64,000 nt of DNA from Ichthyophthirius multifiliis (Eukaryota > Ciliophora > Oligohymenophorea > Hymenostomatida): positions 62,001 through 126,000 of the forward strand of contig NW_004086136.1 in the NCBI RefSeq assembly GCF_000220395.1. The letters run 5' to 3'. Position 1 is the stretch's first letter. Every line of letters starts with the position of its first letter. Shown here one piece after another: positions 36,138-48,955 of the stretch. The translations under genes were made by a program, and so were the position numbers. Under the pieces are notes generated by a model. The model was not told where the DNA came from, did no database searches, and was given only the letters and a program-made list of their open reading frames with translations.

Positions 36138-36474
36138 TTAATTTATTGTAATAACAGATTTAAAAATTTAATAAATAATATATTGTATTATTTTTTATTA
36201 AAAAAAATATCTTTTATTTTTATTTTTTAAATATATCTATATTTTATATATATATAAATTTTTATTTTATAATAAAGAAAAAAAAAAAATGAAATTATAC
36301 TTAATATAAATTTAATTAAATATTCATATATATTTTTACATTTTTTTAATAAAAAGTATAAAAATTCATTAATATTTTATATTTTAAATTAATTAATAAA
36401 TATAAATCTTTGTTAAAAAAATAAATATATATATATATTTATATTTATTAAATAAATAAAATTTTCAATTTCTT
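36138..36474. other. Convergent spacer between ARMC9-like and AGC kinase genes
   Basis: 337 bases of A/T; the two flanking genes end toward each other. No hairpin terminator visible. Confidence 0.5.
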
Positions 36475-39353
<2,879 letters not shown>

Positions 39354-39811
39354 GTTTTTTGTGTGTGTTTTTTTTATTTTTTATATATTTTTTTAATTTG
39401 TTTATTTTTTAAATTTTGTTTTTTAAATTAATTATTAAAACAATTTTTTTAAAAATAAATTTCTTTCGTACATATGTAAATAGTAGTTTATTATTATAAA
39501 TGTTTTTTTTTTTTTTTTTATGTTTTTATTTAATAAGTATTAAAATTATATATATATTTATTTCTTTTTAAAATAGTTTTATTTAATAAACTGTTTTTTA
39601 AAATTAAAAATATAATACAATAAACAAATAAATTTATTTAATCAAATTATTTTTATTTCAATTTATATTCTTTATTACTAATTATTTAAGTTTATAATTA
39701 TTAAAATAAGTTATATTTTTAAAAATTAATTATTATTAAAATTGAGTTATATTTAAATAGATGTTATTAAATAAAAGAAAAAATCCTAATAATCCTATAA
39801 ATTTAATATAA

Positions 39812-39860
<49 letters not shown>

Positions 39861-39873
39861 TATTTTATATATT
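39354..39873. other. Intergenic spacer with (TA)n
   Basis: About 520 bases upstream of the AGC kinase and next to the first snoRNA-like unit, with a (TA)n of about 40 bases at 39817-39856. No gene. Confidence 0.5.
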
Positions 39874-39957
39874 TTTTGTCAGAGACTGAATTTGATCATC
39901 GTGTTTTTACATAGTAAAAACACTCTTCTCAAGAGGTGTCAGTTGTTTCATCAAAAT
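39874..39957 (-). ncRNA. Box C/D snoRNA-like unit 1
   Basis: On the minus strand: box C TGATGAA (39948-39953 complement), an internal CTGA (39939-39942), a C'-like GATGATC (39894-39900) and terminal box D CTGA (39879-39882). Between the inner boxes are two perfect short hairpins (GTGTTTTTAC/GTAAAAACAC and CTCTT/AAGAG). The terminal stem is only T/A. Far richer in G/C than the flanks. Guide targets not assigned; the internal hairpins are unusual for a simple guide. Confidence 0.6.
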
Positions 39958-40156
39958 AAAAAAAAATTATATTAATTATATTTATTTATATTACTTTTGA
40001 AAATTTATTTTAAAACTCTTTCTAATTTTTTAAGGATAATTCTTTGTGCAAATAAAATTAATATTAACAAAAGCCTTAAAATATTAAAATAAAATTAATA
40101 TGATTAATTGTTTAATAAATTTAATAATATATTTTAATTATATATATATATATAAT

Positions 40157-40228
40157 TAATCAGGCAGCTAAGGGTTTTGTAATCAATTAAAATTATCAGA
40201 AACTCTAGTCAAATAATATCATCAGATT
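40157..40228 (-). ncRNA. Box C/D snoRNA-like unit 2
   Basis: Minus strand: CTGATGATAT (box C), D' TTTCTGATAA, box D GCCTGATT, with terminal complementarity AATC/GATT. Length about 70 nt. The segment before box D (ACAAAACCCTTAGCTGC) would be the guide; I could not assign its rRNA site. Confidence 0.65.
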
Positions 40229-40393
40229 ATTATTTTTATATATATATTATGATTATAATGTTATTACTTTTTTTAATTAGATTAGACAAAATAAAATAAT
40301 GTTTTATTTATTAAAGAAATAAGTATTTTCTAACATTCTGTATTTAATATTATTAAAATAAATATATATTTTTATTATTAATAAGTAAAATTT

Positions 40394-40464
40394 ATAATCA
40401 GTTAGTTGTAAATTTTCCTCAATTTAAAATTTTGGAGAGATTCCACACAATGATACATCAAATT
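40394..40464 (-). ncRNA. Box C/D snoRNA-like unit 3
   Basis: Minus strand: box C TTTGATGTA, box D AACTGATT, terminal stem ATAAT/ATTAT. Guide candidate before box D is AATTTACAACTAA. About 70 nt, flanked by pure A/T. Confidence 0.6.
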
Positions 40465-40557
40465 ATAATTATTATTTTTATAATTTTTTTTTTAATTTTA
40501 CCTATAATTAAAAAAATAAGAATATAAAATAATATTTATATTATAATTATATATATA

Positions 40558-40623
40558 TAAATCAGTTAGGAGCGAAAGAATTTACATCAATATTAAATTC
40601 AGATGACTACAAATCATCAGTTA
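40558..40623 (-). ncRNA. Box C/D snoRNA-like unit 4, probable LSU rRNA guide
   Basis: Minus strand has all four boxes: C CTGATGATTT, D' CATCTGAA, C' TTGATGTAA, D AACTGATT. The segment before D, TTCTTTCGCTCCTA, is complementary to GAGCGAAAGA, a conserved LSU rRNA string, so a 2'-O-methylation guide role is likely. Pairing was judged from memory of the rRNA, not aligned. Confidence 0.72.
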
Positions 40624-40779
40624 AATATATATTTTATTTATATATTTTTATTTATTTATAAAATACCTTAATAATTTCAATAAAAGAAACAAATAATTAG
40701 ATTAATTAACGAGTAAAAAAAATATCTTTAGAAAAAAAAGATTTTTAATATTTATAATAAGAAAAATATATTTATAATT

Positions 40780-40856
40780 TAAATCAGAGATCTTGGTGGT
40801 AAATCGTCATACTCTTAAAAAGAGTCAAGAGTAGCAAATATATTGTCATCATATTA
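40780..40856 (-). ncRNA. SNORD24: U24 (SNORD24/snR24-like) box C/D snoRNA
   Basis: Minus strand: box C ATGATGACA, first guide ATATTTGCTACTC followed by a TTGA-type D', then ACCACCAAGATC before box D TCTGATT. Human/yeast U24 has the same two guides in the same order (AATATTTGCTA..CTGA and ACCACCAAGATCGCTGA) directed at large-subunit rRNA 2'-O-methyl sites. Both guides and both boxes match, which makes this the most certain RNA gene in the cluster. Confidence 0.85.
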
Positions 40857-40954
40857 TATTATAATATATATTATGTATTTATATATTACCTATTAATATG
40901 TAAAATAAAATAAAAATATAGTTATTAATTATAATAATTTAATATTTAATAAAT

Positions 40955-41025
40955 ATATTCAGGTCCATAAGCCTATAACCAATGCCGTAGCGTATTACTG
41001 GGGCGGCTAATTAGTCATCAATAAT
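40955..41025 (-). ncRNA. Box C/D snoRNA-like unit 6, G/C-rich
   Basis: Minus strand: box C TTGATGACT, box D ACCTGAAT. The interior (AGCCGCCCCAGT .. CTACGGCATTGG .. AGGCTTATGG) is the most G/C-rich non-coding stretch in the window. GCCGCCCCAGT is complementary to ACTGGGGCGGC, a conserved LSU rRNA segment, but no D' box sits right after it, so the guide role is uncertain. Confidence 0.62.
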
Positions 41026-41550
41026 AATAATATATATATAATATATTTATATTAATATATATATATATATATATATATTTATAATTATTACCTTTATTTA
41101 TAAAGAAGAATCAACTTAGTCTAGTTATTAAATAAGATTTAAATAAACTTTTATAAGTAATATTTTTAATATTATTAATTTTATTAATAATTTATTATTT
41201 TTTTATATATTATTATTATTATTAATTTTATAACATTAGTTTATATAGTATTTCCATTTATTTATATAAAATCTATTATTATTTATATTATTAATTTTTC
41301 TAAAATTATTAAAGATTATTAGTTTATTGATTATTTTATGATTATTGTTATTATTGATTTTATTATTATAATTAATTTTTATATATTTTTATTAAACTAT
41401 AATCAATAATATAAAGTTGTTAATATAAATTATTAATAAGAAATCTTTAAAAATATATTATTTATTCTTTCTATTATTTTAAAAATAAAATTAAAATATA
41501 AGTAAATTATTAAAGTTTTATAAAATTATTTTAATAATTATCTCTTATTA

Positions 41551-41681
41551 TATTTGCTCTGACAAATGCCTCATTTAGAATCACGGAAAACAGAAAAAAA
41601 TCAAATTTTAATCAAAAAAACTTTGAAAAAAACATGACAATTTTCCAGTCATTCTCGTCATCGTTTCTTCATCGCAAATAT
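41551..41681. ncRNA. Larger structured RNA candidate of unknown class
   Basis: About 130 nt bounded by an 8-bp inverted repeat (ATATTTGC / GCAAATAT), with inner hairpins ATGAC/GTCAT and AAATG/CATTT. On the minus strand GCGATGAAG and ACGATGACG resemble box C, but no CTGA box D lies near the other end. Plus-strand and minus-strand readings are both possible. Clearly more complex than the flanks. Not U1-U6, U3, telomerase RNA or tRNA as far as I can judge by motif. Confidence 0.45.
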
Positions 41682-41863
41682 TTTTTATAAGATTAAATTA
41701 TTATAATTATAATATTATAAGATAAATTATTATATTATAATTAACATTAATAATATATATAAGTATATATATATATATATTTAATGTATATATATATATA
41801 TATTTATATATAATTATTTTAAAAAAAATATTTTTATAAATTATTTATTAAAAATTATATAAA

Positions 41864-41933
41864 ATATTCAGTTTGCAGTTAAATGTAATCAAATTTACAT
41901 TATTAAGTGTTGTTAATATTTTTCATCTTAGAT
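41864..41933 (-). ncRNA. Box C/D snoRNA-like unit 8 (weaker)
   Basis: Minus strand: box C AAGATGAAA, box D AACTGAA, flanking AAAAT/ATTTT complementarity. The interior is A/T-rich with GATTACATTTAACTGCAA before box D. Box C is a variant, so less certain. Confidence 0.45.
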
Positions 41934-42106
41934 TTTACATAGATTTTTTAATATATTATTATATAAAAATACATTTTTTTTTCGTTTTCAATTTTTTGAG
42001 TGTATCTTAGAAAAAAATTATAAAATCAGACAATAAATCATTCTAATTATTAAAGATGATTAATAAAAAAATAAGATTATATAATTTTATATAGTTATAT
42101 ATATAA

Positions 42107-42177
42107 TTAATCAGAATGGTAAGTAAAATTTCTTCAAGCTGTTTTCAGCAGCAGAACTGGTATGTTACATCATAATA
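42107..42177 (-). ncRNA. Box C/D snoRNA-like unit 9, probable LSU guide
   Basis: Minus strand: box C TATGATGTAA, D' TGCTGAA, box D TTCTGATT, terminal ATTA/TAAT. The guide before D' (CATACCAGTTCTGC) pairs with AGAACTGGTA, a segment of LSU rRNA. A second guide before box D is TTTTACTTACCA. Confidence 0.65.
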
Positions 42178-42440
42178 TATATATTTTATATAATTTTTAC
42201 TTTTTATTCGAAAGATTTTTTTTTTTTTTCAAATAGTTAATTTAAAGTTCAATTAAGTTTTTTAAAGTTATATCATTCTATAGAATATGTTTTTAAAAGA
42301 TGATTATATTCATATTTTATTATAATTTTTATTAAAAATCACATTTTTTGTATTTGAAATATATCTTTTATAAAAATTTAATAAATAAAAAATATTTTTT
42401 TTATTAATATTAATATAATTTTTTATTTTTATTTATTAAA

Positions 42441-42507
42441 TATTTCAGTAAGCCATGTTTGACATCATGATTTCAGACGGTAATTCCAAAATTGTTAACA
42501 TCATTAT
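42441..42507 (-). ncRNA. Box C/D snoRNA-like unit 10, double guide to SSU rRNA
   Basis: Minus strand has all boxes: C AATGATGTTA, D' CGTCTGAAA, C' CATGATGTC, D TACTGAAA. The guide before D' (TTGGAATTACCG) is complementary to CGGTAATTCCA, the universally conserved SSU rRNA 530-loop neighbourhood. The guide before D (ACATGGCTTA) is complementary to TAAGCCATG near the SSU 5' end. Two plausible targets in one molecule make this strong. Confidence 0.75.
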
Positions 42508-43823
42508 TTTTTTTTATTTTTTTATATAAAATTACTTTTTAGTGAGGAATTTTATTATTTATTAATACTTTAGTTTTCTCTTTTTTATATTTTAGAATTA
42601 TTTTTATTTTTTATTAATTATTTATTTTATTTCATTATTATTTTTATTAAAAATAAGATATAAATAAATTAAATTTAATCTTTTTTAATTTGTACTTTTT
42701 ATTTATTATTTTATAAATATTTTTAGTTTATATTATTTTTATACTTCTTTTTTTTAAAAAAATAAGTTATTAATTTTTTTTTATAATTATCTGTAAATAT
42801 TTGCAGTCGTTTTACTTTTAAACGATAAAAACTTCTTTTTGTGTATATTTTATTATATAAATAAAGTTTATTTTTTATTTCTCTCTTTATTCTTTTTATT
42901 TATAAAAGCAAAAAATAAAAAATATAATATAATTAATCCTACGAAATAAAATAATTTGAAATACTTAATAAATTAAAAATAATAAAATTTATTTAAAATA
43001 AAATTTTATTAGAAATAGTTTTTTTATTTAAAATATTATAATTATAAATGATTAAATAAAAACTTATTGAAAATTTTTAATATTATAACAAAAAACAGTT
43101 AATGTAAAAGTTAACTAAAATCATGTAAATTAATATAATAATATATATATCAACTTAATAATAAAAATAAATATATAATAATTAAAATGATTATTAACAT
43201 GGTTATAATACAATGTAAAACAAATTCTAATAAATATATATATACATTTTATATTAATATAAAAAATAAAATTAATTAACAAAATGAAATAATTAAATAA
43301 ACCAGCACATTATATTGACTAAAATTTATTTAAATAATATATTTTTACGAAAGTATTTTAATTTAAACAAAAAATCAATTTAAAAAATTTTAGACTTTAG
43401 ATTATCTTAATATATTCCTTATATAATTAAAATAATTTTCAAAAAGTAAAATAAATAAAAATTAATATTCAAGAGATATTAAAAGTTAATAAAACCATAT
43501 TTTTAATTGAAATATAATAATTATATATTAAAATCAAAAACACTAATTTTATTAAGCCCTAAAATATTTTTATTTTAAATTTTTAAATTATTCTTATTTT
43601 AATATAAAATATAGTTAAATTAATTATTTATTAAAATAAAAATATTTTATTATATTTTTTTTAAATTTTGGATTTGTTTATAATATATATAAAAGAAAAA
43701 AAATAATTAATAAAATAAAATAAATACATTTTATTTATTTCCAAGTAAATATTTTTTCTTGAATTTAATATTTAAATTTAAAAAAATAAAAAATATATAT
43801 TTATAATATATAAAAATTACATT
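42508..43823. other. Intergenic region between snoRNA array and IFT122
   Basis: About 1.3 kb. A degenerate hairpin (CGTTTTACTTTTAAACG at about 42807-42826) preceded by TGCAGT may be an eroded snoRNA, but has no box C. The rest is A/T sequence without coding composition. Confidence 0.45.
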
Positions 43824-46800
43824 ATGTAGTGTCAAGAACTTTGGACAGAAATTATAGTAATAAAAATATAAATAAAAAAGCAATATTGAAAATTAATAAA
43901 AATATATAATAATAGCCTAAACCATCAGATCCCAATTCAAATTTAACAAACCAAGTATGGTGTACTTGTTTTAATAATGGTAAAATAAACATAAAAAATA
44001 TAAAATATAAATCTAAAAATAAATAAATAGACGGTACAGTTGTATTAGCATGTGTAGGTGATGCAATTTTAGCTTATGACGTGTAATCTGGCGAAATGTT
44101 AAATAAACCAATAAGAGGAGGTTTTTATAAAAAATCATAAAAAAATATAAATAACATTAAAAAAAAAAAAGCACAAAAAGAATAAATAAATTGTATTAGA
44201 TTTTCAAAAGATGGTAAAAGATTTGCAACAGCAAGGTAAAAATAAAAATCTAAAAAAACCATATTTTTATCAAAAAAAACTGAATAAACAAAATAAAAGT
44301 AACGACAAAACTGTATGGATATGGAAATTCGATATTTAATAAAATCCTAAAATTTCCGCCGAAGTGAAATATTCCCATAATGATAAAGTCTATTGTTTAT
44401 CTTTCAACCCTTTAACATAACAAATATTTTCCGGCGGTATAAACGACTACTCAGTATGGACTCCAGATCAAGCTAATATCGAAAAAGGTAAATATAAAGA
44501 TAAAATAATAACCTGTGCATGGAGCGCGGATGGTTTATATATTGCGTTTGGTACTATGTCTGGTTAAATATGTATCAAAAACCGTTTAATGGAAATAAAA
44601 GCTGAAATAAACCGAAGCGCACCAATTTGGTGTATGGATTGGACTCCTGTAACTCCTGATTTTTAAGACAGTAATTTATTAGTAGGTGTATGGGAAGGAT
44701 GCTTAAGTTTTTATAATATATAGGGATAATAATTAGGTAATGATAAAAAATTGGGATTTGATCCACTAGATATAAACTTCAGTTCATAAGGAGAATTTTA
44801 TTTAGTTTCCGGAACAAATAAAAAAAGCACACTTTATACAAGAGATGGGGGATTCCTTATTGATGTAGTTTAGAAAAATGACTGGGTTTGGAGTGGAAAA
44901 TTTAAACCGATAGTTAAATAATTAGGAGGGGTTAACAATGATTAACTTTATGTAAGTTTTTCCACTAATGATGGTGTTATTGGAATATCGAAAATCTAAT
45001 AGTTGACAGTACATGGTTTATATAAAAATAGATACGCCTATAGAGATAATTTAACTGACATAGTAGTATAAAATATGAGTGTTAATTAAAAAATAAGAAT
45101 AAAATGTAAAGAACTAATAAAAAACGTAAGTATATATAAGGAAAAATTAGCTGCTCATTTAAGCGAAAGAATTCTAGTTTACGTTTCTAATTCAGATGAT
45201 TCTTAACTTAAATATAAACTTTTAAAAAGAATGGTAAAAAAAATAGATGCCTAAATTATGGAAGTACTCACTTCTCATATTTTAGTAGCTATCAAAAATA
45301 AACTTTAAATTCTTTAATTTTCAGGAGATTTGGAAAGGGAATGGATTTTCGATTCAACAATTAGATCAATAAAAATTCTTGGAGGAATGTCAGGAAAAGA
45401 AGGGGCTATAATTGGACTGAAAAATGGTTAAGTTTATAAAGTAATGAATTTATAAATATATATATATATAAAAATATATATATTTATATAAATATTTATA
45501 TATATATTATTTATATATTTATATATTTATATATATCTATTTTATACGTTTTTTTTTTAAGATTTTTATAGATAATAGTTTCCCTATTTAGGTTATTAAT
45601 CTTAATGTACCAATCAGAATGATTGATATTTCATAAAAAAAGAAAAAAATTGCAATCGTTGATGATAATAACAATTTAACTGTTTATGATGTTTTCTAGA
45701 AAGAATAAATTTATTAAGAAATGAATGTTCTTTCTTGTGCATTTAATTATGATTTTGATGATATGTTGACTTATTCGTAAGATTTATTAAAGTTTTACTT
45801 TTATTTAAATTAATTTTTATCTAAAAAAAAATAGAGGGAATGATATGACATTTATAAAAAGTTCTGGTCATCCACCTTTATCTTAAAGAATGTCAGGAAA
45901 TGTAGTTGGATTTAAAGGAAACAAAGTATTATATTATTTTTAAACTAATAAAAAAAAAAAAAAAAGTTATTTGTATTAAATGAAAATGTATTAAGTACTA
46001 TTGACATATCTATGACTTAAACAATGTTAAAATATTTAGAAAAAAAAGATTTTTAATAAGCTTATGAAGTAGCTTTATTAGGAGTTACAGACGCGGATTT
46101 ATTACATTTAGGAAATGAGGCATTAATAGCCAGTTAATTTATGATAGCTAAAAAATGTTATGTTAAATTAAAAAAGCTTGACTTTGTATATTTACTCGAA
46201 AGGGCAGAAAGGGATAAAATAAAAAATTAATTTAACGAAAGTATATATTAAGGGGAACTTTTTGCCTTATAGCAGAAATTCCATGAGGCTGAAAATGCAT
46301 TTGTAAAAGCCAACCAAAGATAAAAAGCAAAAGAAATGTATATTACTTTAAAAGATTTCACAAAAGCAAAAAGAGTCGCGAATTCTGAAGTTTTAACTCC
46401 CTAATCTAGATAAGGATAAAGATAAGGCTCACCCAAAAACGATAATGGGTTTGTGTAAGAAAAAAGCAAGGAATTAATTAAATAAGAAGCGGAATGGAAA
46501 TAAAAAACTGGAGATTGGAAAGAAGCTGGTGAGTTATTTGTAAAAGCAGAAGAATATAAAAAAGCCATTGAAATTTTTATCAAAAATAATTATGTAGAAG
46601 GATTACTTGATGTATCAAGGATAGCTGATGTGGAGACTTAGAGAAAAGAAATTGAAATATGTGTGGCATATTTTAAGTAAATTTTATATTATAAATAATA
46701 TGTATATATGTATATAAAAAATTAGAAAAAATAAACATCATTAATAGGCTAAAGAAGTATTTTTAAAACTCTAAGATAATAAATAATTAATGTAATTACA

Positions 46801-47810
46801 TATAGAACTTGAAAAATGGGAAGAAGCATTAGTTTTAGGTATTTTTTTATTTAAAAAAAAAAAATTATATAAAATTAATATTAATTTTTTTTTTTTTTAA
46901 ATAAAAAAAAAAAACTAGCAAAGTCAAACCCCGAATTACTTGAATTAGTAAAACTTCCTTACGCAAACTGGCTTTCCAGACAAGATAGATTCGAAGAAGC
47001 CTTAAAAGCATATCGAAAAATCGGATAATCTGAATATTCGACAAAAATGCTACAAAAATTATCACAAAACGCAGTTTACGAGAAACGATTTACAGATGCT
47101 ACTTTATATTTTTGGATGATATCCACTGAATATTTAAACTTAGTAAAAAATGGAAAACAGCCTTCTTTAGAAGATTAACAAAATATTAAATTATTTTAAC
47201 AATACAGAGAGTATGCTTAAATATATTTCGCTTATTCTAAAATCCATTAATTTGTAGAAGAACCATTTTTACCACTAAGCGGTCATTAATATATGTTAAA
47301 TATATTCAACGCAGCCCGATTTGCCATAAATAAATTAGGAAATCGAAGCTTATATGGAGTAAAGCATTCATATTTATATTATTCATTAGGTAAAGTAAGT
47401 AAATAACTTGAGGCATACAAAACAGCACGTATTTGTTATGAAAAACTTGCAGGGTATAAAATCCCTTCAGATTGGACTGAAGAAATAGAACTTAGTAGTT
47501 TACTTGTAAGATCAAAAGTATATAGCGATGCTGAAAATTTATTGCCTATTTGTAGTAGATGTATGAATTAAAATCCTGTACTTACTGAAGGGAATAAATG
47601 TTCTTCGTGTTTGCATTCGTTTGTGAATTGCTTTTTATCTTTTGAGAATTTACCAGTTGTTGAATTTAAAGTTAATTAAAATATTAATCATAAAAAAGTT
47701 ATAGAGTTAATTAATTCTGATAAATCTAAAATTCCTAAAACTTAAAAAAAAAAAAAAGTGTAAGATATAAAATATTTATTTTATATGAATTATATACATA
47801 ATATATATAC

Positions 47811-47841
<31 letters not shown>

Positions 47842-48338
47842 TATTATCATTTTATTTAATATTTTTATATTAGTGATGACGGATGGTAAGAAAATAATTT
47901 AGGCGATTAATAAGTTCTTACTTTTAATTAATCCCCAAATAAAAATAATGTTGAAAATAGTGCATTTATTGATAAATTATAAGAAATATTTGAAATGTAA
48001 TAAACTACTTAAGAATATATTCCCTTATAATTAGATGAATAAGTATTGTGTACTTTAAATATGGATGAAGTTTATTGTGTTGATTTTACTAGATATTGTT
48101 TGACTTATGATATTACTTATTATAAATCTATGAATAATGATGTTCTTTTGAAAGTATGTAATGAATGTTGTAGCTTTTTTATTTTAGTATCATATTTTTA
48201 TTTAATATTATTTCCGTTTTATATATATTTTTTATTAAGGATGAATATGAATTCGAATTTATTAAAAATGGTAAATGCTCTTTCTGTAGAATTGCAGATG
48301 AAAGAACTGGTGTTTAAAAAGATATTTTTGATTTATGA
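43824..48338 (+). CDS. IFT122: Intraflagellar transport protein 122 (IFT-A core)
   Basis: WD40 N-terminus: VVLACVGDAILAYDVQSGEM, IRFSKDGKRFATA..DKTVWIW, YSHNDKVYCLSFNPLTQQIF and IITCAWSADGLYIAFGTMSG. Diagnostic IFT122 strings follow: TVHGLYKNRYAYRDNLTDIV, QKIRIKCKELIKN, KEGAIIGLKNGQVYKIFIDN, LPYANWLSRQDRFEEALKAY and ICSRCMNQNPVL, and a C-terminal CSFC motif. IFT122 is a core subunit of IFT-A, needed for retrograde transport and ciliary membrane protein entry. About 1,200 residues, the usual size; at least ten introns (first 43857-43915). The final exon restores the C-terminal zinc-binding region after a roughly 80-nt intron. Stop TGA 48336-48338. It reads through from ATG 43824 without frame correction, apart from introns. 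Confidence 0.93.
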
Positions 48339-48955
48339 AAAAAAAAAATATTTCTAAAATAAAAAAAATATATATATTTTTTTTTTATAAAAAATTAAAT
48401 ATAATTATTTTTTTTAAAAAAAATATTTTAAATGACTATTTTCTTTTTATTCAATTATTCAAATAAAATTAAATTTTATTATATTAATATTAAAAAAAAA
48501 AATGTAAATTAATAATAAAAATAAATAATTTAATATTTTTAAAATAAAAAACATTATTAATATTATATTATTTTATAAAAGTCTAATACAATTATTATAA
48601 ATAAATAATTATATATATATAGATATATATATATTTATATATATATATATATATAATATTTACATTTATATTAATTAAAAAAAAAATTATTTACTCTACT
48701 TTTTATTATTTTATTTCTATTTATACATATATATATATTCAAAAAATTATTTAGATAAAATACAAAATCTATATGAATAATTGAATAATATCAGCTAATA
48801 ATATGTAAGTGAAATATTATATTGTTATTTTTAAATATAATTATTAATCTTAATATTACATCAAATCATTTAAAAACAATCTAAATAATTAAAGAGATAA
48901 TTTTTTAAATTAATATACCTATAAAAATAGTAGTAATATAAAAATAAATAAACTA
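48339..48955. other. Intergenic spacer; one weak C/D-like pair
   Basis: About 615 bases of A/T. At 48787-48867 the minus strand shows TTGATGTAA and GCTGATA about 75 nt apart, but the interior is almost pure A/T, so I do not call it an RNA gene. Confidence 0.4.

Follow-up and report, generated by a model that had tools for sequence, protein, structure and literature searches.

A 64,000-nt stretch of the Ichthyophthirius multifiliis genome (contig NW_004086136.1, positions 62,001 to 126,000 of the forward strand; hereafter the window) carries a dispersed block of box C/D small nucleolar RNA (snoRNA) genes. We found ten of them, named u1 to u10, all on the minus strand and all within 2.7 kb. We regard it as practically certain that they form a box C/D snoRNA cluster of a Tetrahymena-type ciliate, in which described families account for nine of the ten genes (for u1 only on a very weak score). 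The reading that we favor for the whole, mode of expression included, is that the cluster is made from one spliced minus-strand host RNA, and we hold this to be moderately probable. The units are listed below in transcription order, in which u10 is the first of the array; scores are those of the Rfam families, each with its gathering threshold.

42445..42503, minus strand: u10, snoR77Y (snR77) type; 42.7 bits, under gathering 52, with an E value of 8e-5 for the whole window.
42111..42172, minus strand: u9, TtnuCD8 / snR61; TtnuCD8 75.8 bits (gathering 70), snR61 50.7 bits (gathering 45).
41868..41928, minus strand: u8, TtnuCD9-like; 37.3 bits, under gathering 70; weaker box C (AGATGA).
41555..41675, minus strand: u7, TtnuCD10; 107.7 bits, over gathering 85; 121 nt long, with non-consensus boxes; also U15-like below threshold.
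40959..41020, minus strand: u6, TtnuCD11; 78.3 bits, over gathering 70.
40784..40851, minus strand: u5, SNORD24 (U24), in the TtnuCD12 slot; 50.9 bits, over gathering 41.
40562..40619, minus strand: u4, TtnuCD13 / snR60 / snoR10-like, every score under threshold: snR60_Z15 31.5 bits (gathering 41), snoR10 32.9 (65), TtnuCD13 26.3 (75).
40398..40460, minus strand: u3, no Rfam family, in the TtnuCD14 slot; canonical boxes and splice-like flanks.
40160..40224, minus strand: u2, TtnuCD15; 85.8 bits, over gathering 75.
39879..39953, minus strand: u1, TtnuCD16-like; canonical boxes; 16.8 bits, far under gathering 75, with ACUGACACCUCUUGAG and CAGUC.CUGA aligned.

The box C/D identity proposed in a preliminary description of this DNA was borne out by the family searches. 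Five of the ten units score above the Rfam gathering thresholds, four (u1, u4, u8 and u10) score below them with an alignment to the family that takes in the boxes and one or more guides, and one, u3, has no family. The best family match of u3, at 14.3 bits, is at chance level, and since TtnuCD14 has no match in the genome either, an assignment of u3 to TtnuCD14 is unsupported. An assignment of u10 to TtnuCD7 was rejected as well, because the TtnuCD7 model, 108 positions long, matches nothing in the genome. In u8, the 3' 25 nt depart from the TtnuCD9 family consensus at one place.

In positions 39801–42600, a strict scan for box pairs (TGATG[ATC], 40–110 nt, CTGA) returned eight box-C starts that are followed by a box D on the minus strand, and the plus strand gave none. 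In 500 dinucleotide shuffles of the block, such pairs averaged 0.18 and never exceeded 3. This result agrees with the preliminary description in placing the units on one strand, and the box count exceeds what shuffled sequence yields. Over the whole window, the scan returned 14 pairs on the minus strand and one on the plus strand (mean of 30 shuffles 1.57, maximum 4); Rfam lends no support to the six minus-strand pairs that lie outside the block. Canonical boxes are present in eight units, and u7 and u8, the boxes of which are weaker, were recognized by family alignment. All nine units originally reported are present, one of them, u8, with the weaker box C AGATGA. The count was one short, as u7 fills the longest gap, of about 850 bases. 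Once u7 is counted, 101–537 nt separate box D from the next box C, instead of the 100–850 bases first stated, and box-to-box lengths are 58–75 nt in nine units and 115 nt in u7, not 65–85 nt. The block might instead be read as box pairs that are degenerate or arose by chance in A/T-rich DNA, a reading that could point to u3, which has no family, and to u1, the family score of which is very weak. Although u3 by itself may still be such a pair, for the cluster taken together this reading is refuted, and its probability is negligible, given five units over the Rfam thresholds, a box count far above that of shuffles, and guides that pair with large-subunit (LSU) ribosomal RNA (rRNA).

Short terminal complementarity, formerly ascribed to most units, turned out not to be general. 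In six of the 12 loci tested, at most 2% of mononucleotide shuffles reach the observed value; among the ten units of the window, those with such a terminal stem are u2, u7, u8 and u9, and the complementarity of u3, u6 and u10 is no better than that of the shuffles. Strong terminal stems were also seen in both copies of TtnuCD6, which lie outside the window and are described below.

Box C/D ribonucleoproteins guide 2'-O-methylation at rRNA sites that pair next to boxes D and D'. Because no match to the 5.8S family was found in the assembly, we took as the guide target a foreign eukaryotic LSU contig (L001), which covers model positions 334–2671 of 3401, and carried out 31 box-guide tests with 60 shuffles each. 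Seven of the 31 tests beat all 60 shuffles: the D' guide of u2, the D guide of u4, the D and D' guides of u5, the D guides of u6 and u7, and one low-complexity stretch of u7. The u2 D' guide pairs over 13 nt, with 0 of 60 shuffles as good, the u4 D guide forms a 13-nt duplex, and the D and D' guides of u5 pair with adjacent segments over 15 and 12 nt. For u6 D (24.0 against a shuffle maximum of 23.0) and for the 12-nt duplex of u7 D (27.5 against 27.0) the difference is narrow. The preliminary description had counted at least four units with segments complementary to conserved rRNA strings; on this partial foreign LSU, the guides of u2, u4 and u5 are clear and those of u6 and u7 pass narrowly. 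In u6, a further 11-nt LSU pairing lies upstream of the likely D' box and outside the 31 tests. The remaining 24 tests on the partial foreign LSU were not better than all shuffles, and no target was found there for u1, u3, u8, u9 and u10. The low-complexity stretch of u7 (41555–41675) is a 17-nt U-rich internal segment that pairs with the LSU elsewhere than at the D-guide site; this pairing probably reflects low complexity, and we discount it. L001 is one of three contigs (L001–L003) filed under bacterial metagenome-assembled genomes in which we observed eukaryotic LSU rRNA matches, and no rRNA strings were found in the viral contigs scanned.

The order of the units along the strand reads CD8, CD9, CD10, CD11, u5 (SNORD24), CD13, u3, CD15 and CD16. 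Seven TtnuCD labels therefore stand in numerical order, and the gaps at 12 and 14 are each filled by one unit without a TtnuCD label. In genome-wide family searches of the assembly (44.96 Mb, 937 contigs), a second locus was found in which a TtnuCD5-like unit (43.4 bits, cut-off 70) lies 238 nt upstream of TtnuCD6 on the same strand:

L009, 4040–4111: one copy of TtnuCD6.
L010, 3668–3741 and 3980–4051: the pair that comprises the other TtnuCD6 copy and the TtnuCD5-like unit.

With the CD8–CD16 labels in register and CD5 beside CD6 elsewhere, the gene order looks conserved with Tetrahymena. We compared the order by label numbers, taking these numbers to follow the genome order in that species, and on this basis the order is apparently shared. 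Three of the seven labels are weak matches that gain weight from their position, and they are not independent proof of the order. For TtnuCD7, CD14, CD17 and CD29, the genome search came back empty; the control genomes were also silent for these families, so that their absence is not established.

The preliminary description had called the DNA between the units featureless, and here our analysis departs from it. We considered 13 cluster-type C/D genes, that is, the ten of the window together with CD5 and the two copies of CD6. Eleven of them have GTAA or GTAT 28–71 nt upstream of box C and the first AG 58–108 nt after box D, and in 10 of these 11 no G at all lies between box D and that AG. A splice test, defined as GTAA or GTAT upstream and the first AG at 55–110 nt with the first 20 nt skipped, was passed by 11 of the 13 C/D genes and by none of ten decoy box pairs; among 6973 sites drawn at random from non-coding DNA, the pass rate was 11.7%. 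Between u8 and u7, the 195-nt spacer contains neither AG nor GTAA/GTAT, and the only spacer without any AG also precedes the one unit that has no GTAA/GTAT. The lack of an AG between u8 and the next unit, together with the lack of GTAA/GTAT upstream of its neighbor u7, fits one shared intron. The introns predicted from these signals, all on the minus strand, are as follows (a slash marks the intron boundary).

42365..42535, minus strand: predicted intron of u10, AA/GTAATT...AAAAG.
42043..42200, minus strand: predicted intron of u9, AA/GTAAAA...ATTAG.
41471..41972, minus strand: predicted intron of u8 and u7, T/GTATTT...AATAG; two earlier AG, 14 and 16 nt after u7, are passed over.
40890..41091, minus strand: predicted intron of u6, AG/GTAATA...AATAG/; its AG abuts the next GT.
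40726..40889, minus strand: predicted intron of u5, abutting the u6 intron across a zero-length exon; the single AG of the u6–u5 spacer abuts GTAATA.
40502..40666, minus strand: predicted intron of u4, AG/GTATTT...TATAG/; its AG abuts the next GT.
40338..40501, minus strand: predicted intron of u3, abutting the u4 intron across a zero-length exon; the single AG of the u4–u3 spacer abuts GTAAAA.
40075..40267, minus strand: predicted intron of u2, AA/GTAATA...TTAAG.
39795..39994, minus strand: predicted intron of u1, AA/GTAATA...TATAG.

Base composition follows the same pattern. In fixed 57-nt windows after box D, the 13 genes have 5 G and 23 C, compared with 80 and 83 in the flanking DNA (Fisher p 0.002). 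The G+C content is 92/822 (11.2%) in the predicted exons and 28/1115 (2.5%) in the predicted intron flanks, and C alone, which is untouched by the intron definition, falls from 50/822 to 24/1115. Nine introns that we picked by eye in the neighboring IFT122 gene all start with GTAA or GTAT and end with AG, and five of them contain no AG further in.

Several observations weigh against splicing. The splice test is also passed on the antisense strand, in four of the 13 places, which means that local composition explains part of the signal and that the background close to the units exceeds 11.7%. The limits of the test were set after the units had been seen, and several of the decoys lie in coding DNA, the composition of which is unmatched. 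The contrast in G+C between exons and introns is partly built in, as the introns were ended at AG. The IFT122 introns are not strictly free of AG, since four of the nine hold one or two inner AG, and a suspected intron near 44120, which was left out of the nine, starts with GTTTTT. An unsupervised motif search gave an upstream motif of 95.5 bits, about two standard deviations over shuffles, for which the mean was 88.5, the standard deviation 3.4 and the highest of 20 values 96.3 bits. Two pairs of introns would have to abut. Outside the window, no host is apparent for the CD6 copy on L009, which has beside it a RabGAP gene of the other strand. Finally, a TATA-like run often follows GTAA (8 of 12 loci), which a promoter would explain too.

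A promoter was our initial reading of the upstream GTAA motif. Ten separately transcribed genes would then each have a promoter composed of A[AG]GTAW and a TATA-like run, unlike that of the U2/U3 type, and a short 5' leader would be trimmed. A[AG]GTAW occurs in 10 of 12 loci, compared with 13–16% of background stretches, and is also found upstream of CD5; its combination with the TATA-like run, at the frequency given above, compares with 1.8–8.5% of the background. In Tetrahymena, moreover, TtnuCD32 and CD33 are reported to be independently transcribed, with a CD32 precursor of 144 nt (PMC6315972). On the other hand, the distance from GTAA/GTAT to box C varies within the range given, and separate promoters leave unexplained the G-poor stretch that extends up to the AG and the missing AG between u8 and u7. 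The reading lost ground to splicing because the IFT122 introns share the GTAA/GTAT starts, because one spacer has no AG, and because the U2 and U3 genes and a U14 candidate carry another element, the lack of which in the cluster is again left unexplained. We consider separate promoters of this kind unlikely.

This other element is AACCCAT. Searches for three further small-RNA families turned up U2 (two genes), U3 (one gene) and a weak U14 candidate elsewhere in the genome, and all four carry the element 68–84 nt upstream:

L004, L005 and L006: U2 (two copies) and U3, which share AACCCAT, TATAAAT starting 29 nt further on, and a stretch containing ACACCCT just downstream.
L011, 1501–1592: U14-like candidate, 30.7 bits (cut-off 64), with AACCCAT upstream.

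AACCCAT is missing from the 130 nt before box C in all 13 cluster-type genes, and single promoters of the small nuclear RNA (snRNA) type were accordingly rejected for the cluster. The U14 candidate in this contrast is weak, and 6 of 14 control genomes also responded to that search, at E values of up to 1. The preliminary description had left the choice between a polycistronic precursor and single promoters; the sequence signals favor one precursor, albeit a spliced one, and disfavor single promoters of the snRNA type.

A single precursor need not be spliced. An unspliced polycistron of the kind known from yeast and many plants, in which an RNase III-type endonuclease cuts between the units, would account for ten units on one strand in so short a block, for the lack of AACCCAT before single units, and for terminal stems in 4 of the 10 units. 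It leaves the placement of GTAA/GTAT and AG unexplained, and we give it a low probability, below that of separate promoters.

If the spliced host RNA that we favor exists, each snoRNA would lie in its own short intron of a minus-strand transcript, except for u8 and u7, which would share one. The excised introns would be trimmed to the mature snoRNAs, which are predicted to guide 2'-O-methylation at the rRNA sites paired beside boxes D and D'. For u6/u5 and u4/u3, where a 3' splice site would abut the next 5' splice site, stepwise splicing or alternative acceptors would be needed. The sequence itself shows the boxes, the families, the order of the labels, the splice-like flanks and the lack of the U2/U3-type upstream element; transcription, splicing and guide function in this species are points that we infer.

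Two genes flank the block:

36465–39353, minus strand: protein-kinase gene with a likely initiator Met at 39353, directly downstream of the cluster and on the same strand.
43890–48340, plus strand: IFT122 (intraflagellar transport), read in the ciliate code, with the nine short introns picked by eye and the further one suspected.

With TAA and TAG read as Gln, the neighboring genes give long conserved domains, as in Tetrahymena-type ciliates; under the standard code, no ATG-started frame of 150 codons exists anywhere in the window. The host RNA would either end before the kinase gene or run into it. The second case leads to a variant that overlaps the spliced-host reading, in which the snoRNA introns would belong to the 5' leader of the kinase gene. 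The shared strand speaks for it, as does the position of the kinase Met, 442 nt past the last predicted 3' splice site, and we regard it as rather improbable.

In I. multifiliis, intergenic G+C is 13.9% (PMC3341644). The word “snoRNA” does not occur in the main text of that genome paper, and its section on non-coding RNA names none (PMC3341644). A literature search for Ichthyophthirius and snoRNA returned, judged by title, no paper on snoRNAs. The present cluster adds a described guide-RNA cluster, in an order apparently shared with Tetrahymena, to a ciliate genome. It also provides a testable case for expression by splicing, unlike the single promoters described for TtnuCD32/33, and the abutting introns, if real, would represent exon loss in a snoRNA host gene outside fungi. 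A wider scheme can be offered tentatively and with more doubt than confidence: ciliates of this group may use two routes in one genome, with U2, U3 and U14 made from single AACCCAT promoters and most methylation guides made from a spliced non-coding host that has lost some exons, the abutting introns of which would be removed stepwise; this arrangement would have arisen independently of the fungal one.

The closest known set is TtnuCD5–CD16 of Tetrahymena thermophila (Rfam RF02282–RF02292), which comprises the same families in what is, judged by the numbers, apparently the same order. Relative to that set, CD7 and CD14 have no match here, and u10, of the snR77 type, is extra. Neighboring C/D snoRNAs in a ciliate are likewise known from the TtnuCD32/TtnuCD33 locus of Tetrahymena, where a promoter element 98 and 118 bp upstream is described together with independent transcription, whereas the units here have no AACCCAT (PMC6315972). 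Among alveolates, Plasmodium has intronic C/D snoRNAs, including two in one intron, in an order kept between species; the hosts described there are protein-coding genes, or the genes form intergenic clusters of two or three, in contrast to the ten-gene block found here (PMC2656528). In the fungal snoRNA clusters I–III, a non-coding host carries several C/D snoRNAs, most of them with an intron to themselves, and some introns abut without exons and are described as removed stepwise or by way of alternative acceptors (PMC3596301). The likeness to these clusters consists in C/D snoRNAs in their own introns and in abutting introns, although splicing is only predicted here, and the cluster differs from them in its ciliate host and in its set and order of snoRNAs (PMC3596301).

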